A stretch of DNA of 64,000 nt from Natrinema salinisoli (lineage in GTDB: Archaea > Halobacteriota > Halobacteria > Halobacteriales > Natrialbaceae): NCBI RefSeq assembly GCF_020405205.1, contig NZ_CP084469.1, positions 2,604,001 through 2,668,000 of the forward strand. Reading direction: 5' to 3'. Below the pieces are notes generated by a model, which worked only from the letters and a program-made list of their open reading frames with translations, ran no database searches and was not told where the DNA came from. The position numbers and the translations under genes were made by a program. Positions 35,978 to 49,011 of the stretch are shown here, piece by piece (within the stretch, counting starts at the first letter, position 1; every line of letters begins with the position of its first letter).

Positions 35978-36120
35978 CGATTAGCGTACAGTAGATGCAA
36001 GCGATATTTACACTTTGTTGCCAAAACGGCGGGAGAGACGGGAGGGGCGGAGAAAATCGACCGTGAAGACGAGGCTACCCGAAAACGCACCGCGCGATCT
36101 GTCCACTCGAGAGCGTCGCG

Positions 36121-36591
36121 TTACGAGCCCCAGAAGTTGTCGCGGCTGCCGAGTCGCTCGCGCTCGGGGCCGCCGTCATCGTCGGGCGCATTGGGCGTCT
36201 CCTCGGCGTCGTCCCCGTCCACATCGCCGTCGGCATCCTCCGCTTCGTCGTCCGGATCCATCGGCAACACTTCGAGTTCCTCCGCGCGTGCGTGATTGCT
36301 GTGAACCCGCGTTATCTCGACTCGGGCACGGGCGTCCGGCAGGACGCCGTCGACCATCACGATGAATCCGTCTTCGGTTCGGCCGACGCCGGCGCCGCTT
36401 TCGTGCATGTCGACGACGTCGATGACGAGTTCCTCGCCGGATTTGACCGGCTGCGTCTTGAGATCCTCGATCGGCTGGCCGTAGTGGTTACACCACTCCT
36501 TGCCACCCCGGTCACCGTAGTGTTGACATCCCATTCCCGAAATCCGTTCGGAGAATTCGGGGCAGTCGTCGGCGAGTGGACAGTCTGCCAT
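36121..36591 (-). CDS. TRAM domain protein with N-terminal Cys cluster
   Basis: A 156-residue protein. The N-terminal 35 residues contain four Cys and several His residues (CPLADDC, GMGCQHYG, WCNHYG), a possible zinc site. The TRAM domain (about 47-105) includes GEELVIDVVDMHESGAGVGR and VMVDGVLPDARARVEIT, an OB-like RNA-binding fold. A disordered acidic tail follows. Archaeal TRAM proteins are proposed RNA chaperones. A TATA-like GGTTTAACG on the minus strand (about 36614-36622) supports the start at 36591. Confidence 0.88.
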   Translation of the reverse strand: MADCPLADDCPEFSERISGMGCQHYGDRGGKEWCNHYGQPIEDLKTQPVKSGEELVIDVVDMHESGAGVGRTEDGFIVMVDGVLPDARARVEITRVHSNHARAEELEVLPMDPDDEAEDADGDVDGDDAEETPNAPDDDGGPERERLGSRDNFWGS

Positions 36592-36797
36592 GCTCGTCAC
36601 TACTAGCGGTGGCGTTAAACCGTTTCCGTCTTCGGGATGGGTTCCGAGTTCGGACGAAACGCTGGTAGCAAACACCGATGTCAGGGACACCGAACATAAG
36701 ATAATTGAACGAATCTATAAATCGTGGTAACTGAACCCTTCCTGCGGGACCGGCGGTTTCGAAAAGGTTTACGGTATGGACGTAGCAGTGTAAGATG

Positions 36798-37589
36798 ATG
36801 AAAATTCTCGTTACGGTCAAAGAGGTGGCGACCGTCGAAGACGAGTTCGAAATCGAGGGAACGGAGATTGCAGACCAGTACCTCGGGGCCGATCTCAACG
36901 AGTGGGACGACTACGCGATCGAAGAAGCTGTCCAGCTACAGGAGGACGGCATCGCCGACGAGGTCGTGACGGTTACCATCGGTCCGGAAGACTGTGAACA
37001 GACCATCCGGCAGGCGCTCGCGAAGGGTGCCGACCGCGCCGTCCGCGTCTGGGACGACGCGCTCGAGGACGTCGACCTCCTCGACGTCAACGCCAAGACG
37101 GAGATCCTGAGCGCCGTCGTCGAGGAAGAGGACCCCGATCTCGTCCTCTCGGGCGTCCAGGCCGGCGACGACAGCTTCGCCGCGACCGGCGTCTCGGTGG
37201 CCGAGAACCTCGGCTTCCAGTGGGGTGCCGTCGTCAACCACCTCGAGCACGATCTCGACGACGGGATCGCGTCCGTGCGACGCGAGCTCGAGGGTGGCGT
37301 CGAGGAGCTGACGGACATCGAGCTCCCGGCCGTCCTGACGATCCAGACGGGTATCAACGAGCCCCGCTACGCCAGCCTGCGCGGCATCCGGCAGGCCCAG
37401 CGGAAAGAGCTCGACGTCAAAGCGTTCGCCGACATCGGCGTCGACGAGAGCACGATCGAAACCGAACTCGAGCTGACGGACATGTACGAGCCCGAAAGCG
37501 AAACCGACGCGACGTTCTGGGAGGGCAGCGCCGAGGAGACGGCCTCGGAGCTGGGTGAACTGCTCCGCGACAAGGGGGTGGCACAATGA
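36798..37589 (+). CDS. etfB: Electron transfer flavoprotein subunit beta (FixA type)
   Basis: A 263-residue EtfB/FixA. The N-terminus MKILVTVKEVATVEDEFEI, the DEYAIEEA-like DDYAIEEAVQL, AKGADRAVRVWD and VLTIQTGINEPRYASLRGI are characteristic. With EtfA it forms a heterodimer carrying FAD (and AMP or FAD in the beta subunit) that moves electrons from acyl-CoA dehydrogenases or other donors to quinone. No fixC/fixX lies next to it here. The start at 36798 is about 27 nt from a TATA-like TTTACGG at 36768; an ATG one codon earlier (36795) is also possible. It overlaps etfA by 4 nt. Confidence 0.94.
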   Translation: MKILVTVKEVATVEDEFEIEGTEIADQYLGADLNEWDDYAIEEAVQLQEDGIADEVVTVTIGPEDCEQTIRQALAKGADRAVRVWDDALEDVDLLDVNAKTEILSAVVEEEDPDLVLSGVQAGDDSFAATGVSVAENLGFQWGAVVNHLEHDLDDGIASVRRELEGGVEELTDIELPAVLTIQTGINEPRYASLRGIRQAQRKELDVKAFADIGVDESTIETELELTDMYEPESETDATFWEGSAEETASELGELLRDKGVAQ

Positions 37590-38542
37590 CGGACGTCCTC
37601 GCGGTCGCGGACCACCGACGCGGCGAACTGCGCGACGTCAGCTACGAGATCATCACCGCCGGTCGCCAGCTCGCCGACGAAACCGGCGGCGACCTCCACC
37701 TCGCAGTCATCAGCGGCACCGTCGACGACTTCGCAGAGAAGCTCAACCGCGACGGCGTCGACGCGATTCACACCGTCTCCCACGGCGAGGAGTTCAACCA
37801 CGACGTCTACACGCAGGCGATCACGCAGCTCTACGACGAACTCGCCCCGCAGTACGTGCTGACGCCCAACAGCGTCAACGGGCTCGACTACGCGCCCGCG
37901 ATCGCCAATCAGCTCGACCTGCCGGTCGTCACTGACACGATCGATCTCGACAACGACGGCGAGACGCTCGTCGCGACCCGCGAGATGTACGGTGGCAAGG
38001 TCGAGACGACCAACCAACTCGAGGGCGACGCGGTCATTACGATCCGCGGTGCCGAGTGGCCCGCCGCCGAAGGGACCGGCGACGCCGCGATCGAGGCCTT
38101 CGATGCGGACATCGACGAGGACGCGATCGGCTCGACCGTCAACGGCTTCGAGGAAGTCGGCGGCGGCGACGTCGACATCAGCGAGGCCGAACTCCTCGTC
38201 TCCATCGGCCGTGGGATCGAGGAAGAGGAGAACCTCGACCTGATCCGCGACCTGGCGGACGCGCTCGGCGCGACGCTGTCGTCCTCGCGACCGATCGTCG
38301 ACAACGGCTGGCTGCCCAAGAACCGACAGGTCGGCCAGTCCGGGAAGGTCGTCACCCCCGACGTTTACATCGCGATCGGCATCTCCGGCGCAGTCCAGCA
38401 CGTCGCCGGAATGAAGGGCTCCGATACGATCGTCGCGATCAATACTGACCCCAACGCGCCAATCATGGACATCGCGGACTACGCGATCGTCGACGACCTC
38501 TTCGACGTCGTGCCGGAACTGATCGAAGAGTTCGAAGGGTAA
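37586..38542 (+). CDS. etfA: Electron transfer flavoprotein subunit alpha (FixB type)
   Basis: A 318-residue EtfA/FixB. The C-terminal FAD domain is intact: [40 protein letters not shown] and [17 protein letters not shown], ending with [13 protein letters not shown]. The ATG overlaps the etfB stop, so the two subunits are translated together. A 3'-flanking structured repeat begins a few nt after its TAA stop. Confidence 0.95.
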
Positions 38543-38665
38543 GCGATCGTACCGCGAGCGCTGCGCGGTTCGGAACGAGCGCAGCGAGTGAGAACCGCGA
38601 ATCGAACGGGGAACGAAGTGACCCGTGAGCGAACGGACGCTCGGTTTGTAGCTGTATTTTTTCGC
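38543..38665 (+). repeat. 3'-flanking repeat family 2, copy 1, with alternative stems and T-tract
   Basis: Block 1 at 38551-38602 is 51/52 identical to 46081-46132. CGCGGTTC (38564-38571) can pair with GAACCGCG (38592-38599), or its first six bases with ACCGCG (38551-38556), so two exclusive stems are possible. Block 2 at 38606-38627 matches 46197-46218 in 21 of 22 positions. A run of six T (38657-38662) follows. The position behind the etfA stop suggests a terminator or 3'-UTR element. The rest of the gene-free stretch to 38990 is AT-rich around 38745-38790 and then has an open frame of basic composition that I do not consider coding. Confidence 0.75.
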
Positions 38666-38990
38666 CAGCGTGAGAAATCGCCGTCCCTACTCAGCCGCGT
38701 ATGCCGCTTGAACACGATCGGATCGCTGCCGTCGTTCTAATATCTTGACAAACAATCAGTAAAATCCAAATAGCTTCGAATTAATTATGCGTAGAATGCG
38801 AACTGGAACCGATGTGAAACTGACGATGCGTATCGGATTCGGGGGGGAGCGTGGCAGTCGGCGAGTCGTCGTCCGATCCTCACGGACGGCGACAGTCGAT
38901 GCTGGGGTCTCGCCGGACCGGCTCGTGGAACGCGATCGGTCGTGGCCGGACGATAGCTCCCCGGCAGACGGTCCCGGTTCACGACGGGTC

Positions 38991-40679
38991 ATGACCGACG
39001 GCGGAACCGTTTCGGATGCCAAAGAGGATCACCGAATCGGAGATCGAATCGACGATCTCGAGGCCGAGGTCGCCAGCGCCGAGAAGACGCTCGAATCGCT
39101 CGAGGACCGACTCTCCGAACGAGCCAGTCGGGAATACGTCGACGCCCAGCTGGACGCGCTCACCGCCGTGATCGAGGACGTCGATAGCTCGGTCGAAGAC
39201 CTCGAAACGGCGCTCGAGGAGACGGGCGACGACGCGGCCGACGTCGACGCGGCGGCCGTCAACGCCCTCGAGGCCGACGTCGAGGCGCTGTCGGACGAGT
39301 TCGAGTGGCTCGAGGAACAGGTCTCCGAACGGCCGAAGCGGGAGGCGGTCGACACCCAGCTGAACGCGCTCACGGCCGTGGTCGACACGGTCGACGACTC
39401 CGTGCAGGAACTCGAAACCGAACTGCGATCGCTTTCGGAGACCGTCGAGTCGATCGAGGCGTCGGAGTCGTCGACGGCCGGCGACGCACGAGCGGCCGCC
39501 GACCTCGAGCGCGACCTCGAGTCGCTGGCGAGCGATATCGAATCGCTGTCGGCGGAACTCGAGTCGGTTGCCGAGACTGCAGTCGACGAATCGGACCTGC
39601 GAGCGGCGACGGAGGGGCTGGCCGACGCGGACCGCCTCCGGGAGCTCGAGGAGGCCGTGCCGATGATCACCCAGACGGTCGACAACCTCGAAACGGCTAT
39701 TTCAGAACGTCTCGAGCGGCTCGACGCGTACGACGGCGGAGCATCCGACGAGTCCATCGGTGCCCTCGAAGAACGGGTCCAGACGCGCTTCGAGGAGATC
39801 CACGGCGAGCTGTCGACGCTCGACGCGGAGCTCACGGAGGTTCGCGAGACAGTCCCCGAACTGGAACGGTCGGTCGAGTCGACGGACGAGACCGTCCGCG
39901 CCGTCCGAGGGGAACTACGGGAAGAGGTCGGATCGATCCGCGAGGAGTTCGAGGCAGTACGAGAGCGGATCGATGCGGTCGAAACTCGGGTCACCGAGGT
40001 CCCAGACGACGCCGCGGATTCGGACCGAGTGGAGGGTCTCGCGGAGACCGTCACCGACCTCCGTCAGAGCCTCGAGACGCTCGAGGAAGACGCCGTCACC
40101 ACGGAGTCAGTGACGACGCTGCAGGCGGAGCTGGCCCAGACTCGCCGGCGGCTCGAGGCTGTCGAAGGGACAGTCGAGAACGTCGAAGCCACCGCCGAAG
40201 AGACCGTCGAAGACATCGAAGAGACCGTCGAGACGCTGGAACCGGCCGTCACGGACCTCCGGACGGACGTCGACGCCAATCGAGAACAGCTGAAACGGCT
40301 CACGACGACCGTCGAGACGGTCGAAACGTCGGTCGAGTCGGACACCGAGCTCGAAGCGACCGTCGACGACGTCGAATCGAGCGTCGACGAGATCGAGGCG
40401 CGGGTCGACGGGATCAATGGAAAGCTCGAGTCGGACCTCAAGACCCTCCATCTGGAGATCGACGACCTCCGTGAGCAGGTTCAGACGGACGAGGGGAGTC
40501 TCCTCAAGCGAATGGTGAAAGACGACGTCTTCGGACTGGTGACGGTCGCGTTCGTGGCCATCAGTGCGATCGGCGCGTCGATGGCGTTCTTCGACGGGCA
40601 GCTCGCCTTCGCCGCCGTGTTCGCCGCCATCCCGATCGTGACCGTTCTGGGCGCTCACGTTCTCTCCCAGCGATCGTGA
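38991..40679 (+). CDS. Long coiled-coil protein with C-terminal membrane hairpin
   Basis: A 562-residue, strongly acidic protein. Residues about 15-490 are nearly continuous heptad-like coiled coil rich in Glu, Asp, Val, Leu and Thr. Two membrane helices (about 515-535 and 538-557) close the protein. An internal duplication is clear: ASREYVDAQLDALTAV near residue 45 and PKREAVDTQLNALTAV near residue 118 recur in similar context. It resembles bacterial tail-anchored SMC-like proteins only in layout. The start is uncertain: the frame is open back to 38787, where the AT-rich promoter-like sequence lies, but the added stretch is basic. The function is unknown. Confidence 0.75.
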   Translation: MTDGGTVSDAKEDHRIGDRIDDLEAEVASAEKTLESLEDRLSERASREYVDAQLDALTAVIEDVDSSVEDLETALEETGDDAADVDAAAVNALEADVEALSDEFEWLEEQVSERPKREAVDTQLNALTAVVDTVDDSVQELETELRSLSETVESIEASESSTAGDARAAADLERDLESLASDIESLSAELESVAETAVDESDLRAATEGLADADRLRELEEAVPMITQTVDNLETAISERLERLDAYDGGASDESIGALEERVQTRFEEIHGELSTLDAELTEVRETVPELERSVESTDETVRAVRGELREEVGSIREEFEAVRERIDAVETRVTEVPDDAADSDRVEGLAETVTDLRQSLETLEEDAVTTESVTTLQAELAQTRRRLEAVEGTVENVEATAEETVEDIEETVETLEPAVTDLRTDVDANREQLKRLTTTVETVETSVESDTELEATVDDVESSVDEIEARVDGINGKLESDLKTLHLEIDDLREQVQTDEGSLLKRMVKDDVFGLVTVAFVAISAIGASMAFFDGQLAFAAVFAAIPIVTVLGAHVLSQRS

Positions 40680-40743
40680 CTGACTCGAGTGCGAGGACGG
40701 TCGATCCGTTACGTACTTTTCGCCCCTCTCCTAAACCCCTGCA

Positions 40744-41586
40744 ATGGAACTGCTGGAGCGTCGACGAGCGCTGATCGAGGAGCGTCTCGTCGAGGTCGTC
40801 GATGGGGTCGAACCCGAGACGCTCAGCGAGGAAGTTCGTCACGTCGCGCTCTCGGGCGGGAAGCGCGTCCGACCGATGATAACACTGTTGGCCTGCGAGA
40901 CAGTCGGCGGACGGGCCGAGGATGCGGTCGAGTTCGGCGTCGGTATCGAACTCGTTCACGCGGCCTCGCTGGTCGTCGACGACATCATCGACCGCTCGGA
41001 GCTGCGACGCGGGACGACCAGCGCGTGGGCCGAGTTCGGTCACGGCCCGGCGATCATCACCAGCGACGGGTTGCTCGGCGAAGCCTTCGCTCTCTTTTCG
41101 GCCGATCCGAACGCGACCCGCGTCGTCGCCGAGGCGATGGTCGAACTCGGCATCGGCGAAGCGACCGAGCTGTCGGCCGAGCCGACGAACGAGGAGGAGT
41201 ACATGACCCTCGCTCGGCGAAAGACCGGAGCGCTGTTCCGTGCCGCGGCCGAACTCGGCGCGATCGCCGCCGACTCGGACCCCGTCACCGTCGAGGCGCT
41301 GGGCGAGTACGCCGAGCGGGTCGGCGTCGCCTTCCAGATCAGGGACGACGTGTTAGACGCCGTCGCCGACCCCGAGGAACTCGGCAAACCGACCGGCAAC
41401 GACGCCGCCCTCGAGCGGCCGTCGGTCGTGCAGGTGACCGATCTCACGCCCGAGGAGGCCAACGCCTCCGCCCGGCGGGAAGCCGACCGCGCGATCGACG
41501 CCCTGGACCGGGTCGACGTCGCGGATCCGGAGGCGCGAGACTACCTGCTCGAACTGGCGGAGTTCGTCGTCGAGCGCGAGCGGTAG
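40744..41586 (+). CDS. Polyprenyl diphosphate synthase (GGPP/GFPP type)
   Basis: A 280-residue trans-prenyltransferase. The first Asp-rich motif is DDIID at 79-83 with RSELRRG after it; the second is DDVLD at 201-205. GGKRVRP near residue 38 is the substrate-binding region. It condenses isopentenyl diphosphate with allylic diphosphates for archaeal lipids. The residue five before the first motif is Ala74, small, so a long product (C20 or C25) is possible. At 280 residues it is shorter than many family members, resembling secondary haloarchaeal paralogues. It is 65 nt downstream of the coiled-coil gene. Confidence 0.9.
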   Translation: MELLERRRALIEERLVEVVDGVEPETLSEEVRHVALSGGKRVRPMITLLACETVGGRAEDAVEFGVGIELVHAASLVVDDIIDRSELRRGTTSAWAEFGHGPAIITSDGLLGEAFALFSADPNATRVVAEAMVELGIGEATELSAEPTNEEEYMTLARRKTGALFRAAAELGAIAADSDPVTVEALGEYAERVGVAFQIRDDVLDAVADPEELGKPTGNDAALERPSVVQVTDLTPEEANASARREADRAIDALDRVDVADPEARDYLLELAEFVVERER

Positions 41587-41595
41587 GGACGCGAG

Positions 41596-42711
41596 TCAGA
41601 CACGGCCGGCCTGTCGCGATCCCTCCTCCCGGTCCGTATCCGAAAAGCGCGACTCCGCGACGGCGAAGGTGAGCGTGCTCACGATCCCGAGCAGCGTCCC
41701 CGCCGTCAGCGCCGCCGCGAGATAGGCGATCTCGACGTCGCCGAGGAAGAACGCGCTCACCGCGTGGAGGACCACCGCGATCGAGAGCACGTAAAACGGC
41801 GCGTTGAGGTATCGCCACTCGAGCGAGCCGGCGATGTACTCGTCGGTGATCTGCCCGAGGCTGGTAGTGAGGCCCGCGGCGGCGAACCAGTGGATCGAAC
41901 CGTAGACGAGCGCGGCGAGCATCACGGGAACGTCGAGCTCGCCGGCCGTCGTTCGCTGGACCGTCTCGAGCGTCTCGACGCCGCTGACGCCGCCGAGAAC
42001 GAACAGGGCCGCGGCGACGACGTACGCCAGTAGCGTCGTTCGGCCGGCGTACAGCGATCGGCGGGCCCGTTCGACGGTCTCGTCCAGTCGATCGCCGAGC
42101 CCCAGTCCGCGCGAAATGAGATAGAAGCCGAGCAGTGCCGACGTCGTCCCCAGGACGAACCCGGGCATGTTCAGCACCGACCCGATCAGCGCGAGCGGAT
42201 AGATCAGCAGGAGGATACCGAGCGGAATGAGGACCGTCCCTCGCGTCTCGGGGTCGTCCAGCACCTGCTTGATCGTGTAGTACATCGACTCGAGGTTCTG
42301 TGCCTGTCGGACCACGACCCGCCGAACGCCGTCGATGGGGACGCGCGAGCGGATGATCGGAATGACGGACTCGTCCTGTGCGCCGTCGGTGACGACGAGC
42401 GTCGTGACGTCCTCGGCCGTCGAGAGGCTCGCGAGGACGGTATCGACTTCGTCGCCGACCTCCCGGTTGGCGCTGACGTCGCCCTCGTCGTTGCCGGTCA
42501 CGACGGCGACCTCGACGCTCTCGTCTCGTTCGTCGAGATCGTCGTAGATGTTCAGTCCCTGAAAGATGACGTTGACGTCGGAGTCCTCCGGGTCCGCGGT
42601 CGCGAGCGCGACGGCCGCCTCCTCGACGGGATCGCGACCGATGACCGGCGTCGAAAAGCCGGTCTTTCGACCGAGGTCGTCGTCGAGGTCGACACAGAGG
42701 ACCAGCAGCAT
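41596..42711 (-). CDS. DUF373 family membrane protein
   Basis: A 371-residue protein of the archaeal DUF373 family. The N-terminal soluble part (1-145) begins LVLCVDLDDDLGRKTG and has a Rossmann-like pattern. The second half has about seven membrane helices. No enzyme activity is known to me. The start at 42711 was set because the family begins at MLLVLCVDLDDD. It is convergent with the prenyl synthase gene, 9 nt between the stops. Confidence 0.9.
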   Translation of the reverse strand: MLLVLCVDLDDDLGRKTGFSTPVIGRDPVEEAAVALATADPEDSDVNVIFQGLNIYDDLDERDESVEVAVVTGNDEGDVSANREVGDEVDTVLASLSTAEDVTTLVVTDGAQDESVIPIIRSRVPIDGVRRVVVRQAQNLESMYYTIKQVLDDPETRGTVLIPLGILLLIYPLALIGSVLNMPGFVLGTTSALLGFYLISRGLGLGDRLDETVERARRSLYAGRTTLLAYVVAAALFVLGGVSGVETLETVQRTTAGELDVPVMLAALVYGSIHWFAAAGLTTSLGQITDEYIAGSLEWRYLNAPFYVLSIAVVLHAVSAFFLGDVEIAYLAAALTAGTLLGIVSTLTFAVAESRFSDTDREEGSRQAGRV

Positions 42712-42838
42712 CGATCGGACGTTCGAGCGCGGGGTATTTCCATCTTCTGGGGTCGAAAGAATGCGAGGCGGGCCTCGAGTCCGAGAGGGACGTGGGGTCG
42801 GCCGGCGACGCGAAGGGGTCGTCGCGGAAACGGAGGAC

Positions 42839-44776
42839 TCAGGGATACTCGAGGTCCGTCTCGTCCGCGTCGAGGGAAACGCCGCGAATTTCGAAGCGCG
42901 CGCCGCCGTCACGGCTCTCGCCTGCGCTGACGTCCCAGCCGTGGGCCTCGGCGATCTGTTCGACGATCGCCAGCCCGAAGCCGGTTCCCTCCGCCGCCGT
43001 CGTGTAGCCGAACTCGAACAGCGACTCGCGGTCGTCGGGCAGTCCCGGGCCCGAATCCGCGACGTAAAACCCGCTCGAGCCTGTCGGGTCGTCGGTCGAT
43101 CCCTGCTCCCGATCGACCGTTCCGATGGTGACGGTCAACTCACTAGTTCCGCTGCCGTCGCCGTTGACGAGGTCTCGTCCGACCGGGTCCGAATCGGTCC
43201 GTGACTCGGGATCCGTCGAACCGTGTTCGACGGCATTGCGGCAGAGGTTCTCGAGCAGTTCCCGGACTCGAGCCTCGTCGGCGTAGATTCTGACGTCGGA
43301 GTCGACCTCGAGCCGGGCATCACCGGTGTCAACGGTCGACCACGCCTCCCGAGCCGCCGAGGCGAGCGGGAACCATTCCCGATCGCCGATCGTCTTTCCC
43401 TGGCGAGCCAGCCGGAGGAGTCCGTCGACCAGTTCCGTCATCCGAGAGAGCGACCAGCGCAGTTCGTCGACGTGTTGGCTGTCGACCTGCTCGTCGAGCA
43501 TGTCGAGGTGGCCCTGTGCGACGTTCAGCGGGTTCCGGAGGTCGTGGCTGACGAGGCTCGCGAACTCCTCCAGGCGCTCGTTCTGGCGCTCGAGTTCGTC
43601 TCGGTAGTGTTGTTGCTGCGTAATGTCGCGAAGCGCGTGGACCGTCCCGGCGAACTCGCCGTCTTCGAGCGGAAGGAGTTTGGTGTGAACGTCGTAGATC
43701 CGCTCGTCCCCCTCGGCGGACCGAAACTGAATGTTGTACGTCGCCAGCTCGCGGTCGTTGTTCGAGGAGAGGAGCGCTCGGACGTCGTCGATGTACCGGT
43801 CGATCGCCGCCTCGTGATAGTACCCGCGCTCGACGAGTGTCGGAAATTCGAGCCCGAGCAGTTCGTCTCTCTCTTCCTCGAACCCGGACGCGTACTCCTC
43901 GTTCATCCAGACGATAGTGGCGTCAGCGTCGAGCACGAACAGACCGAAAGGTGCCGTCTCGAGGATCGTTTCGTACTGTGAGAGCTCGCGTTCGCGCTCC
44001 TTGCGGCGGGTAATCTCCCGAACGACACCGACCGACCCGTCGAGCTCGCCGTCCTCAGTGAGCAGCGGCGTGACGCTCGTCTCGCAGATCTTCCGACTCC
44101 CGTCTCCGGTTTCGAACGTGGACTCGAAGCTCGATCCGGTAGTCGCGTCCGACTCGAGGGCCGCCCTGAGCGCATCGGTCGCGCGCTCGAACGTCTCGTC
44201 GGTAACGAACCGTTCGATGTTCGATCCGACCAGCCGGTCGCGGTCGTGGCCCAGACGGTCGACCAGCGCGTCGTTGACCATCGTGATCGATCCGGTCTCG
44301 TCGAGCAGATACATCGGATCCGCGGCGTTTTCGACCAGCGTTCGGTACTGCTCGAGGCGGCGGTCGGCGGCCGCTCGGGCGCGTTCCGCACGGCGTTTCT
44401 CGACGGCCTGTCTGATCCGGTGTGCCAGTATTTCGTACTGAACGGTCCCCCGTCGCTTCTGTAGATAGTCAGTGACGCCGGCCTCGATGGCCTCTCGTGC
44501 GATGTCCGAAGGGTCCGTGCCAGTGACCAGGAGAAACGGGATCGCCGGATCGCGGTCTCGAACGATATCGAGGAACTCGAGTCCGTCCATCTCGGGCATG
44601 TCGTAGTCGCTAACGATGCAGTCGATATCGCTGTCGTCCAGAACTGCCAGCCCCTCGCGGCCGCTGCCAGCGGTCGTCACGTCGAGACCCTCGTCCGTTC
44701 GCTCGAGAACTGTCGCCGCCAGTTCGCAGACGCTCGGGTCGTCGTCGACGCACAGGACGTGAATCCCCGATCCCAT
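42839..44776 (-). CDS. Hybrid receiver-PAS-PAS histidine kinase
   Basis: A 645-residue cytoplasmic kinase. An N-terminal receiver domain (1-120) has Asp57 as phosphoacceptor, with acidic residues 11-13 and TGTDPSD. Two PAS domains follow (about 140-255 and 268-390). The HisKA box has His411 in SLVSHDLRNPLNVAQ. The HATPase domain carries ENLCRNAVEHGS, DSGPGLPDD and GTGFGLAIVEQIAEAHGW. An acidic insert splits the HATPase region (about 520-560). This architecture is common in haloarchaea; ligand and partner are unknown. It is divergent from the radical-SAM gene. Confidence 0.92.
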   Translation of the reverse strand: MGSGIHVLCVDDDPSVCELAATVLERTDEGLDVTTAGSGREGLAVLDDSDIDCIVSDYDMPEMDGLEFLDIVRDRDPAIPFLLVTGTDPSDIAREAIEAGVTDYLQKRRGTVQYEILAHRIRQAVEKRRAERARAAADRRLEQYRTLVENAADPMYLLDETGSITMVNDALVDRLGHDRDRLVGSNIERFVTDETFERATDALRAALESDATTGSSFESTFETGDGSRKICETSVTPLLTEDGELDGSVGVVREITRRKERERELSQYETILETAPFGLFVLDADATIVWMNEEYASGFEEERDELLGLEFPTLVERGYYHEAAIDRYIDDVRALLSSNNDRELATYNIQFRSAEGDERIYDVHTKLLPLEDGEFAGTVHALRDITQQQHYRDELERQNERLEEFASLVSHDLRNPLNVAQGHLDMLDEQVDSQHVDELRWSLSRMTELVDGLLRLARQGKTIGDREWFPLASAAREAWSTVDTGDARLEVDSDVRIYADEARVRELLENLCRNAVEHGSTDPESRTDSDPVGRDLVNGDGSGTSELTVTIGTVDREQGSTDDPTGSSGFYVADSGPGLPDDRESLFEFGYTTAAEGTGFGLAIVEQIAEAHGWDVSAGESRDGGARFEIRGVSLDADETDLEYP

Positions 44777-44904
44777 CAGATACGCTACGTTCTAACTCCA
44801 CAGTATAATAATATGTGGCTACGAGTCAGGTGCCAGCGATCGCCACACATGGACCGCGTCAGTTTCGGACTGCTTTTGAGGCTCCAGTGGCTATGTTCCC
44901 TCGA

Positions 44905-45900
44905 ATGATCTCGAAGGGCTGTGAGCAGTGCGCGAAAGGTGGCAAGATGGTGCTGTTCGTCTACGGATACTGCGACCAGCGCGACTGCTTTTACTGCCCG
45001 CTCGGCGAGAACCGCAAGAACGTCACCGACGTCTACGCCAACGAACGGCTCGTCGAGAGCGACGAGGACGTCCTCACCGAGGCCCACCGGATGGAGGCGC
45101 TCGGCACGTCGATCACCGGCGGCGAGCCCCAGGAAGCGCTGGGTCGGACCTGCCACTACCTCGAGCTCCTGAAAGACGAGTTCGGCGAGGACCATCACAC
45201 GCACCTCTACACCGGCATCACCGGCGGCCGCGAGAACATGCGCCGCCTCTCGGAAGCGGGCCTCGACGAGATTCGCTTCCACCCGCCCTACGAACAGTGG
45301 GGCGACCTTCACGGGACCGAGTGGGAGGAGATCCTCCACATCGCCCGTGAAGAAGGCCTGACTCCCGCCTTCGAAATCCCCGGCATTCGCGCCGAAGAGG
45401 AGTTCCTCGAGTTCCTCGACGAGGGCGCGGCGGAGTTCTGCAACATAAACGAGTTCGAGATGAGCGACGGGAACTACCGCCGGATGCAGGAACAGGGGTA
45501 CGAACTCAAAGAGGACCACATGAGCGCCGTCGAGGGCTCTCGCGAGGACATCCTCGACGTCATGGGCGACCACGAGAAGGTCTACTTCTGTACGTCCGTG
45601 TTCAAGGACGCGGCCCAGCACCGCCGCCGCCTGAAACGGATGGCCCGGAACATCCGCCGCGAGTTCGACGACGTCACCGACGACGGAACCCTCGTCTACG
45701 GCAAGACCCACGCCGACCCCGAGGAGTTCGACGCCCTCGGCGTCCCCGAAGAGTTCTACACCGTCAAGACCGACCACGTCGAAGTCGCCTGGTGGCTCCT
45801 CGAGGAAATGATCGAGGACGGCGACCTCGAGGACGGCGAAATCGTCGAGCAGTACCCGACCTACGACGGGCAAGTGGTCGAGCGGACGCCGCTAGCGTAA
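44905..45900 (+). CDS. Radical SAM-like protein with unusual CX4CX2C cluster motif
   Basis: A 331-residue protein. The putative [4Fe-4S] motif is YCDQRDCFYC with Cys23, Cys28 and Cys31: four residues between the first two Cys, not the usual three. The radical-SAM glycine motif SITGGEPQEA follows, and the beta-alpha fold segments TGITGGRENMRRL and DEIRFHPP. Two further Cys (6 and 9) precede the cluster. I know archaeal homologues of unknown function, so no substrate is given. The start at 44905 suits the family; ATG at 44893 is an alternative. Its last nine codons and stop are duplicated at 46050-46078. Confidence 0.85.
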   Translation: MISKGCEQCAKGGKMVLFVYGYCDQRDCFYCPLGENRKNVTDVYANERLVESDEDVLTEAHRMEALGTSITGGEPQEALGRTCHYLELLKDEFGEDHHTHLYTGITGGRENMRRLSEAGLDEIRFHPPYEQWGDLHGTEWEEILHIAREEGLTPAFEIPGIRAEEEFLEFLDEGAAEFCNINEFEMSDGNYRRMQEQGYELKEDHMSAVEGSREDILDVMGDHEKVYFCTSVFKDAAQHRRRLKRMARNIRREFDDVTDDGTLVYGKTHADPEEFDALGVPEEFYTVKTDHVEVAWWLLEEMIEDGDLEDGEIVEQYPTYDGQVVERTPLA

Positions 45901-45990
45901 GAACCGCGAACGAACGGAAGCGCGGCGCTACGCGCCGCGGGAAGACGAGCGGCCCGCGGCCGCGAGTGAGTGATCGGGTCTTTTTTGGTG
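45901..45990 (+). repeat. 3'-flanking repeat family 2, divergent copy, with hairpin and T-tract
   Basis: Immediately after the TAA stop of the radical-SAM gene the element starts with GAACCGCG (45901-45908), the same stem half as in the other copies. A perfect 8-bp hairpin CGCGGCGC/GCGCCGCG (45921-45928 with 45932-45939) follows. GAGTGAGTGA, shared with the copy at 46079-46245, and a run of six T (45981-45986) complete it. It could act as a transcription terminator. Confidence 0.65.
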
Positions 45991-46049
45991 CAGATTTTTG
46001 CTCCGAGCGGTGCGCTGTGCGCACCCGAGGAGGAAAAAGGTGCACGTGG

Positions 46050-46078
46050 CAGGTCGTCGAGCGGACGCCACTAGCGTA
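46050..46078 (+). repeat. Second copy of the 3' end of the radical-SAM gene
   Basis: These 29 bases match 45871-45899 at 26 positions. In frame, both encode QVVERTPLA. The three differences (CAA/CAG, GTG/GTC, CCG/CCA) are all synonymous, and the stop is TAA in the gene and TAG here. The copy is preceded by unrelated sequence. It looks like the end of another allele of the same gene left by recombination. Confidence 0.8.
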
Positions 46079-46245
46079 GGACCGCGAGCGCTGCGCGGTT
46101 CGGAACGAGCGAAGCGAGTGAGAACCGCGAATGCGAATAGCGAGGGACGCAGAGCGTCCCTCGGACCATGCGAGCCGGCCGTCGGCCCGCGAGCAGACGG
46201 GGAACGAAGTGATCCGTGTACGAGTGAGTGAGCGGCTTTTTATCC
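46079..46245 (+). repeat. 3'-flanking repeat family 2, copy 3, with inserted hairpins and T-tract
   Basis: Block 1 (46081-46132) matches 38551-38602 in 51 of 52 positions and can form the same alternative stems. An insert with the hairpin GAGGGACGC/GCGTCCCTC (46142-46150 with 46154-46162) and a GGCCGTCGGCC hairpin follows, which copy 1 lacks. Block 2 (46197-46218) and a five-T run (46237-46241) close it. Nothing else coding is seen before 46317. Confidence 0.75.
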
Positions 46246-46316
46246 ACGGTTGTCCGTCCGACTCGCGGCCGGTGTCACTGACGCTCGTCGAGGCTCCGGT
46301 GAACACCGGCCGTCGT

Positions 46317-47621
46317 TCACTCCACTTCGGTCGGATCGACGCCCGGCAGCGTGATGAGGTTCTCGCGCCCGATCCGAAGCTTTTCGATCTCGTCGTCGTC
46401 GTCCATCTTCGAGAGGAGCTGTGAGACCTTGGCGTTCGACCAGCCGGTCTCCGAGACGATCGAGGCCTGTTTCATCCGCCCGCCGTTTTGCTTGAGCAGG
46501 CGGTGGACGCGCTCCTCGTCGCTCAACAGTTCTGGGTCGATCTCGTCGTCGACGGATTCCTCGAACTCGAGGCTCGTCCCCGACTCGGGATCACCGGACG
46601 CTGACGAATCGGCCGTCGAGACTACGTCGGAGCCGCCGTTTCCATCGGCCGTTGCGGTCTTGTGCCCGTCCGCGGGACTGTTCGAACGGCCGGGCAACTC
46701 CGCGTTCTCGAGGACCGACAACCGATCGGACGGAATCGGAACGCCGACGTCTATATCACGACGCGTGAGCAGGTATGCAATCCCACCGACGAGGATCACG
46801 AGGGCGAGAACTGACGCGATCAGCCATCCGGCTCCGGGAAGGAAGAAGGGGCCGCCGGCACCCTCGAGAATCGTGATCTGGACTCCGTTCTCGCCGAATT
46901 CGTGGGGGCCGTCCCAGACGAGTGCGCCGTCCTCCGTACTCGTCGGCGCATCGACGAATCCGTAGTTCGATGGGGGTTCGATAACCAGGCGCTGCCCGCT
47001 ACTCAACGTCCGGAACAACGTCCCGTCGGACGTTTGGAGGGCGTCACCGACGTGAATCCGTTCGCCGTCGACGGTGGCGAAGTTCGTCCACGTAAACGAG
47101 TAGGAGATGATCCCGACTCGATACGGCTCTTCGTCAACCGATCGGTCCGCGTCGAGGTCGACGGTTTCGATTCGGGGGTCGTCCCACGCTGCGTTCTCGA
47201 TCGACATATTGCGGCCGGTCGACTTAGACGCGAGATTCGCGTACCGTTCGAACAGTTGGGGATCGTACCCGGCGTCTCGTTGGCCCGAGACGACCGCATC
47301 GGCATACTCGTCGAACGTTTCGGCATCGTCGTCGTCCGTCACGCGGAACCGACTCTCGACCGTCCATTTCGCGTCCCCGGTATCGGTGATCCGAATCCTG
47401 ATCACCTGCCAGGTATCGGGTCGTTCGAGCGGCGGTGGTGCGGTGGACGAGGCCGAAACGGACTGAGACTGCTCGGGAGCTGTGGAGAGCGATGAGGGGT
47501 CTGGGGCTGGCCGCTCGATAGTCGCCGGGGTCGATGCCGACGGCGTGGCGGCCACTGCCCCCATCGTGGTTGTCGCGAGGAGGACCGCGAGGGCAAGTGT
47601 GGCGGCAGTGGACATCCGCAT
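46317..47621 (-). CDS. Membrane-anchored protein with extracellular domain and C-terminal winged helix
   Basis: A 434-residue protein. A signal peptide (about 1-25) leads to an extracellular domain of about 220 residues, a membrane helix (about 262-284) and an acidic linker. The C-terminal winged helix (about 370-425) includes LLSDEERVHRLLKQNGGRMKQASIVSETGWSNAKVSQLLSKM. This is the layout of haloarchaeal regulators recalled as DUF7345/DUF7343 proteins. It could sense an envelope signal and bind DNA from the membrane, possibly after cleavage by a site-2 protease; this is inference. The ATG at 47621 was chosen; 47615 is also possible. It is divergent from the DUF7094-type gene. Confidence 0.82.
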   Translation of the reverse strand: MRMSTAATLALAVLLATTTMGAVAATPSASTPATIERPAPDPSSLSTAPEQSQSVSASSTAPPPLERPDTWQVIRIRITDTGDAKWTVESRFRVTDDDDAETFDEYADAVVSGQRDAGYDPQLFERYANLASKSTGRNMSIENAAWDDPRIETVDLDADRSVDEEPYRVGIISYSFTWTNFATVDGERIHVGDALQTSDGTLFRTLSSGQRLVIEPPSNYGFVDAPTSTEDGALVWDGPHEFGENGVQITILEGAGGPFFLPGAGWLIASVLALVILVGGIAYLLTRRDIDVGVPIPSDRLSVLENAELPGRSNSPADGHKTATADGNGGSDVVSTADSSASGDPESGTSLEFEESVDDEIDPELLSDEERVHRLLKQNGGRMKQASIVSETGWSNAKVSQLLSKMDDDDEIEKLRIGRENLITLPGVDPTEVE

Positions 47622-47790
47622 GCGTATCAACGGGTGGTTTCCCGGGGGAAAAAACACTTTCCATCGGAAAATAAAACGTTACTGGCGGCGTTGAAAGCTC
47701 TAATTCGCCGTGAGAGGTTCGCTACGATCGGTTTCTTCTCATCACCGACAGACGACCGGTTTTTGTATCAAGAGCCCATACGGAACCCCG

Positions 47791-49011
47791 ATGACTAACG
47801 CGACCCCCGCTCTCTTCGCGGTACTTCTCGTTCTGTCCCTGCCCGCGATACCGCTCGTCGGGGCAGGTCCCGACGACGGGAGTATCGACGGCCCCGAGGC
47901 GGCCCTCCTCCAAGACACCACCTCGGGAACGGAGCCGACGGCGGTCGACAATACGACCAACAGGCTCCAGCTTACCGGAGACGTCAGAAGCGAGTACACC
48001 GAGTACGGACCGAATCTCGGAACGGCACTCGCAAGCGCCGACGATCACCTTCGAGTCGACCACGATCAGTACACCATCGTCGACAGCGAGTTCGACGGCG
48101 CAACCGCCGAGGAACGAGCGGCGATGATCCAGACGGCCTACGAGCGGCTCACGGAGCGAGCGGACGAACTCGATCAACGCGAACGCGAGGCCGTCAGAGC
48201 ACACGCGGCCGGCGAGCGCTCGTCGACCGAGCTCCTCCAGACGCTGGTGCGAAATCACAACGAGGCGGCGATGCTGTCCCGCGACCTCGAGACACTGGAG
48301 GATCGGGCAGCCAGTGTCCCGGGATACTCGCTGTCAGCGAGCGAGGTGCGTGCCGACCACAAGTCCCTGGACTACCACCAGACCTCCCTTCGGACGACCC
48401 TCGAGCGACTGTCCGAACGACCGACGAGTACCCATCGCGATATCGTCGTCTCGACCTCTGAGACCGGATACAGCGTTGCGGTCATAGACGGGAGTCAGTA
48501 CGTCGTCGAAACGAGTCGGTTCGATAACCGCGACGAAACCGCACCTGACCGGTTCGAAAACGGCGAAGCGTACGATCACACGGCCGAGCTCTACCCGTGG
48601 GCGAGCGAATACGGCCCCCACTTCCAGGACAACAGCCCCGACTACTACTGGGCGGAAATGGGACACGATCACGGTCGACTCGAGTTCTACTTCGACAGTG
48701 GGACGGGAGACGTCTACCGCGAAATGCAGCAACTGTCCGCATCGTCCCTTCCCGCGATGGAGGCCACCTCGTGGCCCCGTGACGAACTCAACCTGACGGT
48801 CACCGAGACGCCGGCGAACGGGCCGGCCAAGGTCACAGTGACTGATCCGGAGACCGGAGATCCCGTCCGATCGACGGTTACGGTCGACGGCGTCGAAGTC
48901 GGCGAGACCGGCGAAGACGGATCCATGTGGATCGCGCAACCGGTCGGGACGTACGACCTTACAGTGTCGACCGAAGCGGAGAGCGTGAACGCGACGATAA
49001 CGGGTGACTAG
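47791..49011 (+). CDS. Secreted DUF7094-type protein
   Basis: A 406-residue protein with a signal peptide (about 6-26, ALFAVLLVLSLPAIPLVGAG). The middle (about 85-200) is helical and charged, and the C-terminal 80 residues look like a beta-sandwich (VTVTDPETGDPVRSTVTVDGVEVGE), similar to carboxypeptidase-regulatory-like repeats. It resembles a family recalled as DUF7094. It is divergent from the membrane HTH regulator and precedes a pilin-like gene. A TATA-like TTTTTGTAT about 28 nt upstream supports the ATG at 47791. Confidence 0.78.
   Translation: MTNATPALFAVLLVLSLPAIPLVGAGPDDGSIDGPEAALLQDTTSGTEPTAVDNTTNRLQLTGDVRSEYTEYGPNLGTALASADDHLRVDHDQYTIVDSEFDGATAEERAAMIQTAYERLTERADELDQREREAVRAHAAGERSSTELLQTLVRNHNEAAMLSRDLETLEDRAASVPGYSLSASEVRADHKSLDYHQTSLRTTLERLSERPTSTHRDIVVSTSETGYSVAVIDGSQYVVETSRFDNRDETAPDRFENGEAYDHTAELYPWASEYGPHFQDNSPDYYWAEMGHDHGRLEFYFDSGTGDVYREMQQLSASSLPAMEATSWPRDELNLTVTETPANGPAKVTVTDPETGDPVRSTVTVDGVEVGETGEDGSMWIAQPVGTYDLTVSTEAESVNATITGD

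Follow-up and report, generated by a model that had tools for sequence, protein, structure and literature searches.

A double-hairpin repeat with tandem G-A pairs in terminator-like hairpins of Natrinema

Behind certain Natrinema genes lies a hairpin followed by a T-run, and a non-coding double-hairpin unit appears to have entered the loop of this hairpin; a passive 3'-end structure is the most likely explanation for the unit (probability of roughly two in three). The repeat looks like a modular 3'-end structure with unusual G-A pairs and not like an on/off switch. It is of ordinary size; its structural style is unusual and class-wide. According to the proposed mechanism, a unit of 69–72 nt would insert into the loop of a host hairpin upstream of a T-run. 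With the unit placed in the loop, insertion would leave intact both the T-run and the outer stem (CCGC-GA ... GA-GCGG or its Watson-Crick equivalent). The sense transcript could then fold as a cloverleaf just 5' of the T-run, composed of the outer stem, hairpin 1 and hairpin 2. Such a cloverleaf would act passively, as an aid to termination and/or as a block to 3' exonucleases, and the T-run would be the release signal. The relevant features of the window, which is the whole stretch of 64,000 nt of Natrinema salinisoli DNA that was analysed, are given below.

37586..38542, + strand: etfA (electron transfer flavoprotein alpha; Pfam ETF E 8e-32, ETF_alpha E 4e-36)
38555..38560, + strand: 5' arm CGAGCG of the host terminator-like hairpin, paired with 38638-38643 in the predicted RNA fold
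38561..38631, + strand: inserted 71-nt double-hairpin unit CTGCGCGGTTC...CCCGTGAGCG, delimited by the filled/empty comparison
38564..38599, + strand: hairpin 1 (predicted RNA fold; pair counts in 72 copies)
38603..38629, + strand: hairpin 2 (predicted RNA fold of the region, in which the outermost pairs differ)
38638..38643, + strand: 3' arm CGCTCG of the host terminator-like hairpin (predicted fold; element-less comparison)
38657..38662, + strand: T6 run 3' of copy 1, read directly
44905..45900, + strand: radical-SAM-like gene (codon-bias gene call; start uncertain, 44815 or 44905)
45902..45999, + strand: first terminator-like region of the radical-SAM gene, listed as a second copy in the preliminary description and not a copy of the block
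46048..46081, + strand: duplicated gene tail including the stop codon (88% over 34 nt against 45869-45902)
46081..46133, + strand: 5' half of a repeat copy, with hairpin 1 at 46094-46129 (51/52)
46134..46200, + strand: extra hairpins such as CGAGGGACGC/GCGTCCCTCG, nested within the hairpin-2 region (approximate borders)
46201..46241, + strand: hairpin-2 remnant and host 3' arm with T5 at the end, read directly

Filled and empty insertion sites

The first copy of the repeat lies in the 3' flank of etfA. The conserved block of 52 nt noted in the preliminary description is real, and positions 38551-38602 and 46081-46132 are identical at 51 of 52. Of the three copies claimed there, those at 38551 and 46081 stand. 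The one at 45901-45990 was rejected; its best ungapped 52-mer match is only 23/52, which 168 of 500 shuffles equalled or beat. The only thing common to this stretch and the block is the host frame ACCGCGA..GAGTGAGTGA..T-run, a general feature of terminator-like hairpins in the genus Natrinema. The gene upstream of it (Pfam Radical_SAM 28.1 bits, slightly below the cut-off of 29.5) is followed by this frame with other hairpins and then by T6GGTGCAGAT5. A location behind a stop codon was found directly for the copy at 38551, and for that at 46081 only via the duplicated last ~32 nt of the upstream gene. The T-runs 3' of the claimed copies are present (38657-38662, 45981-45986, 45995-45999 and 46237-46241). 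Nested hairpins like those in 46134..46200 are present too in G027 (L118/L178). No TIRs were seen at the repeat copies of the window, and a comparison of window positions 36000-48000 with Rfam found nothing at E values up to 0.1.

The 3' flanks of three genes were compared in 29 genomes of the genus (etfA, 30 loci; radical-SAM, 29; purH, 29). In a frame found in many of the flanks, CCGC-GA begins 2-8 nt after the stop codon, and GA-GCGG is followed by TTTTT and often by TTTTTGGTCCAGATTTTT. What lies between CCGC-GA and GA-GCGG varies from species to species; in L149, L151 and L164 it is a plain Watson-Crick hairpin. The etfA and purH flanks of relatives carry the arrangement stop - CCGCGA..GAGCGG - TTTTT on the sense strand. 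For the comparison of filled and empty sites, the unit was removed by script and the joined flanks were matched to element-less relatives. When 71 nt (38561-38631) are taken out of the etfA flank of the N. salinisoli genome, CCGCGAGCGAACGGACGCTCGG is left, and it matches G005 at 23 of 28 positions, the first 22 being identical. The etfA flank of G005 has this type of site as one piece, with the host 5' arm (38555..38560) contiguous with the 3' arm. Without its 72-nt unit, the radical-SAM flank of G004 agrees with G007 at 26/28 positions. For purH, where 69 nt were cut out in each of three genomes, the agreement with G013 is 26, 26 and 27 of 28.

The insertion point is identical in the etfA, radical-SAM and purH flanks (CCGCGAGCG^AA); it lies in the hairpin loop and has GAGCG at the junctions. 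In the window, GAGCG flanks the 71-nt unit (38561..38631) on either side, and the ends of the unit are identical in the radical-SAM copy of G004 (72 nt) and similar in purH (69 nt). The GAGCG at both junctions may be a target-site duplication of the MITE type or, equally well, shared micro-homology. Four of the ten filled sites (L165, L207, L215 and L358) had no good empty partner, with 13-18 of 28 positions matched, and therefore the borders vary. At L180, only the site of another gene matched (23/28). The dispersed nature of the family suggests insertion as the polarity; exact excision of the unit between its two GAGCG copies would leave the same picture. The element-less orthologous sites make terminator evolution directly observable.

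Judged from its copies, the repeat is a dispersed non-coding double-hairpin family with a unit of 69-72 nt, and the spread suggested in the preliminary description fits the occurrence of the block as a dispersed family in relatives. A search of the own genome (4.70 Mb) with the 52-nt block, which had been proposed there, returned the two strong copies, one at C1:1056655 (85% over 46 nt) and otherwise weak partial matches. The block is commoner in relatives: among the matches listed for a query of 155 nt (E<=0.001), 39 of 61 genomes are represented, mostly through query positions 34-118. This query includes 46 nt of the etfA coding tail with its stop codon, and some matches are therefore coding. 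Dispersal within a single genome, a mark of REP sequences, gives a mixed picture: copies are few in the own genome, and among the matches listed there are up to 22 in one relative, with some in tandem. The exact hairpin-1 pattern occurs in 75 stretches among 84,980 genomes, all titled haloarchaea. Copies were read from the best 29 loci and from 60 further places of the longer match list, which gave 72 distinct copies after those with the same core were merged; copies outside the search expression are not part of this count.

Tandem G.A pairs, covariation and RNA folding

In most of the 72 copies, hairpin 1 follows the consensus CGCGGTTC-G-GA-RC-GA-RC-NNN-GY-GA-GY-GA-GAACCGCG. The etfA copy (38564..38599) reads CGCGGTTC-(G)-GA-AC-GA-GC-[GCA]-GC-GA-GT-GA-GAACCGCG, with a GNA triloop and two tandem G.A steps. 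Hairpin 2 has the form GC-GA-ACGG..CCGT-GA-GC in the 72 copies, and its core is variable yet self-complementary; in the window it is C-GA-ACGGG-GA-AC-[GAA]-GT-GA-CCCGT-GA-G. In both hairpins, 2-8 Watson-Crick pairs alternate with tandem 5'-GA-3'/5'-GA-3' mismatches, and a GNA triloop is present in 53 of the 72 copies. The bases of tandem GA mismatches generally form sheared pairs.

The G.A hairpin architecture covaries across haloarchaea. Among the 72 copies, the outer inner pair is G-C in 40, A-T in 28 and G.T in 4, and the next pair is A-T in 50, G-C in 19 and G.T in 3; A.C was found at neither position. Behind orthologous genes with a Gly-Met-rich tail, the stem base is AGCGGTTC/GAACCGCT in L101 and L102 versus CGAGGTTC/GAACCTCG in L107 and L227, and the stem-base changes at these orthologous sites come in pairs. 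Class-wide counts come from 116 genomes, 112 of which contain the A-T form GCGAACGNAGTGAGC (1485 matches) and likewise 112 the G-C form GCGAGCGNAGCGAGC (1279 matches); among the matches listed, the half-changed forms have 86 and 73 and the scrambled form 6. With the A-T pattern reversed as a control, only 11 of the 116 genomes had a match, 13 matches in all. That of the G-C form was high because of GCGAGC runs, so that the G-C count is weaker evidence than that of the A-T form. Of 156 genomes from outside the class, 25 have the A-T form, mostly with one or two matches each. The exception is g64, a genus of another class in the phylum, with 5-11 A-T-form matches in G207, G227, G245, G303 and G306; most other genomes there have no match.

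The mismatch itself was examined in an own-genome sample of 1.264 Mb (the window and 60 stretches), with genes called by codon bias. Among non-coding triloop hairpins, GA/GA tops 144 classes of two-by-two mismatches, with 57 cases versus 20 for the next class when its own complement is set aside. At non-coding sites of the form NN-GA-NN-GNA-NN-GA-NN, all four pairs are complementary in 31 cases versus 2.5 by partner shuffling; the coding figures are 12 versus 6.0. The singling out of GA/GA is not readily explained by a site that acts only as double-stranded DNA, through protein binding or another non-B structure, and is a pseudo-palindrome by chance. Such a site is very improbable, and the hairpin-2 inner stems, which vary among copies with their complementarity retained, also speak against it. 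Its attractions are that the core GAGCGAAGCGAG is a mirror repeat and that the G.T and A.C intermediates are about equally rare throughout the class, as a duplex palindrome would give. The ratio of G.T to A.C was discarded as a pointer to the folding strand; it is 7 versus 0 in the 72 copies, and class-wide G.T (86) is not clearly above A.C (73), so the folding strand is not indicated. With DNA parameters the predicted fold differs, and the energies are alike for both strands, so that DNA folding was likewise dropped as a strand discriminator.

Haloarchaeal genomes are rich in purine-rich strings like GCGAACGAAGTGAGC. A full-text search of 5.39 million papers with six strings of this kind, each of 14-16 letters, gave no occurrence, and no description of this repeat was found in the literature searches. 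The reading as G.A hairpins accounts for the form and the covariation of these strings. It also leads to a testable model of archaeal 3'-end formation at very high salt.

The predicted RNA fold of 38549-38650 is a cloverleaf of the outer stem and hairpins 1 and 2 at -40.8 kcal/mol, with a z of only -1.24 versus shuffles. The bulky terminator, which the preliminary description had offered as the simpler reading, fits the location of the block, which lies on the sense strand inside the loop of the host hairpin, past the stop codon and ahead of the T-run. The same description had raised a terminator/antiterminator switch, in which the nascent RNA would choose between the ACCGCG/CGCGGT upstream stem and hairpin 1 and thus control read-through. 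The exclusive pairing can indeed be drawn. CGCGGTTC (38564-38571) pairs either through its CGCGGT part with ACCGCG (38551-38556), which gives 6 bp, or with GAACCGCG (38592-38599), which gives 8 bp, and not with both. The separate energies are -16.8 kcal/mol for hairpin 1 and -9.0 kcal/mol for the upstream stem.

The copy survey, the host-site comparison and the energies led to the rejection of the switch as a working model, and only a slight chance is left to it. The upstream arm is missing from 59 of the 72 copies. In the 13 that have it, it is essentially invariant, which does not count as evidence of selection, and it shows no covariation. ACCGCG overlaps the 5' arm of the host hairpin and, by the comparison with G005, is part of the host site and not of the repeat. 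Twelve of the 13 copies with the host arm are behind a sense gene. Folding with ~110 nt from hairpin 1 onward predicts hairpin 1 in 7 of the 13. The upstream stem is predicted in one of them (L215), and when it is forced on the other 12 it is unfavourable by 1.9-9.9 kcal/mol. Besides L215 and the fact that both stems can be drawn, the switch is favoured by the triplet between the short arms, which varies in the 13 copies while the arms are constant. Against it, the structure lies behind a stop codon and no obvious target gene for regulation follows; no leader peptide or ligand site was seen either. For the etfA copy with a longer flank, an alternative fold lacking hairpin 1 is better by 0.2 kcal/mol, and a short-lived early hairpin might form during transcription.

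Orientation, dispersal and gene tails

The G.A hairpins in the etfA and radical-SAM flanks (first 200 nt) are 26 sense and 0 antisense, and those in the purH flanks (300 nt) are 13 sense and 0 antisense. Combined, the three orthologous 3' flanks give 39 to 0, in counts that are not independent, as flanks and copies are related by descent. Sorted by their neighbours, 61 of the 72 repeat copies (10 lack a neighbour and 1 is inside a gene call) are distributed as ++ 22, +- 18, -+ 13 and -- 8, with gene strands taken from codon-bias gene calls and not from annotation. The orientation bias whose check had been proposed holds for the repeat family in tandem intergenics, with 22 sense versus 8 antisense, but not for G.A hairpins overall. 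The latter showed no sense bias in the own sample (7 tandem sense versus 9 antisense; 7 and 13 with looser gene calls) or in pattern-chosen haloarchaeal loci (15 versus 22), and therefore some of them are probably REP/MITE-like DNA. Their density in the own sample is highest in convergent intergenics (12 in 52.4 kb) and lowest in divergent intergenics (4 in 73.8 kb) and in coding DNA (15 in 937 kb). A T4 lies within 10 nt of only 5 of the 32 non-coding ones.

In G018, G008, G021 and G032 (L185-L216), a longer dispersed element of ~200 nt carries the hairpin block inside. Many of its copies have TATAGTAGCCACTGAAAGTCA/TTTCAGTTGTTACTATA-like ends, judged by eye to be TIR-like, and some contain tandem 16-nt or 57-nt repeats. 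The copies within this element occur in all gene contexts. Another recurring intergenic frame, GATGACGA-[perfect hairpin]-CGAACCAC, has variable stems (L003 1401-1700, L009 1401-1700, L101 1601-1720) and is perhaps the other family of the preliminary description.

The unit could also be selfish DNA, namely the interior of a REP/MITE-like element whose location in terminators is tolerated and not used, with hairpins that matter as single-stranded DNA in replication or transposition. This is unlikely, although it has been kept as a rival because of the longer element and the lack of an overall sense bias. The tandem arrays would suit it. So would the stability of the loop, as the available text of PMC6582339 describes GCGAAGC, whose GAA loop contains a sheared G-A pair, as a very stable DNA hairpin. 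Against it stand the sense-only orthologous 3' flanks, the paired changes at orthologous sites and the preservation of the outer stem and the T-run. The ends of Y1 transposase elements give no sign of G.A hairpins either: of 28 Y1 loci in the genus, 25 have none and 3 have one, in no case placed at an element end. An IS200/IS605 origin was rejected on these counts, and by this test the Y1 loci are not the source of mobility for the unit. A passive 3'-end structure remains the preferred explanation.

The own sample also contains duplicated gene tails. These are 5'-truncated copies of the last ~28-111 nt of a gene, usually with the stop codon, situated 110-270 nt downstream, past a terminator-like hairpin, T-runs and a AAAAAGGT string. 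Examples are window 45869-45902/46048-46081, L064 5807-7684, L078 15090-15815 and L079 2194-3894. A 3' tail copy within 450 nt was found for 4 of 745 genes, compared with 0 of 745 at 5' ends and 0 of 745 with the mid-gene control. The four with a tail copy are the radical-SAM gene, a PIN- and KH-domain ATPase, a purH-like gene and an archaeal diphthine-ammonia ligase; in every case a GGAAAAAGGT-like string precedes the copy. In relatives, tail copies are present in 8 of 29 radical-SAM and 9 of 30 etfA flanks (threshold 22/27 or more) and in 11 of 29 purH flanks (23/30 or more). They recur at the same genes across the genus, and some are in series. At purH, G013 with a tail copy and G009/G001 without one have a common flank beyond it. 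A conserved pair of T-runs, TTTTTTGGTCCAGATTTTTT, is located 3' of hairpin CCGCGAGCGAACGNAGTGAGCGAGCGG in L033, L067 and L078, comparable to window 45981-45999. The L033 and L067 cassettes have no clear sense gene nearby and share the upstream string GAGGGCAGGCG.

A strand-specific structural code of haloarchaea, modular 3'-end cassettes that nest, and the gene-tail duplication of Natrinema may be taken together as one reading, which is tentative and rather doubtful as a whole. If it is true, Watson-Crick pairs alternating with tandem sheared G.A pairs, together with GNA triloops, would be a style suited to saturated salt. Transcript 3' ends would have a modular structure, with cassettes that spread by nesting in each other's loops. 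Natrinema would add the recurrent duplication of the gene tail and stop codon downstream of the terminator.

Comparison with known systems

A bacterial intrinsic terminator consists of a GC-rich hairpin with a T-run directly after it, behind a stop codon. The layout of hairpin and T-run is common to both systems. The own copies and the etfA and purH flanks of relatives show the intrinsic-like arrangement, in which a sense-strand stem-loop separates the stop codon from the T-run. The differences are the archaeal polymerase, the long multi-hairpin structure and the G.A pairs in the stems; in contrast with the bacterial terminator, the hairpin is not known to be required. In Haloferax volcanii, hairpins lie upstream of 503 termination sites, and one tested hairpin gave 59% termination and T5C 95% (Berkemer et al. 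2020, PMC7237163, as excerpted). Its T-run terminators have a T stretch 3' of the gene, as here. Compared with what that excerpt describes, tandem G.A pairs, inserted units and element-less orthologues belong to the present repeat only.

Haloarchaeal MITEs are short dispersed elements with terminal inverted repeats. REP sequences and BIMEs are short dispersed extragenic palindromes, some in tandem (RepRanger, PMC12306157, in the portion available). The repeat resembles these groups in its short dispersed palindromes, some in tandem and some inside a TIR-bearing element. It differs in its defined insertion point in a terminator loop and its G.A-rich stems, and no link to a Y1 transposase was found for it, as far as the available portion allows the comparison. 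Mitochondrial double-hairpin elements or repetitive hairpin-forming elements (Paquin et al. 2000, as cited in part of PMC2800124) are likewise adjacent hairpins that are dispersed. They are found in non-coding places or are tolerated inside genes, and their mobility was deduced from differing insertions in close relatives. In contrast to them, as far as they are portrayed there, the repeat is archaeal, sits in terminator-like loops and carries tandem G.A pairs, with no sequence relation shown. Finally, GNA mini-hairpins of the d(GCGAAGC) type are known from PMC6582339, in its available text, as a structural fragment. Their GC-GNA-GC core is literally present in the repeat, and here it belongs to a genomic repeat family.
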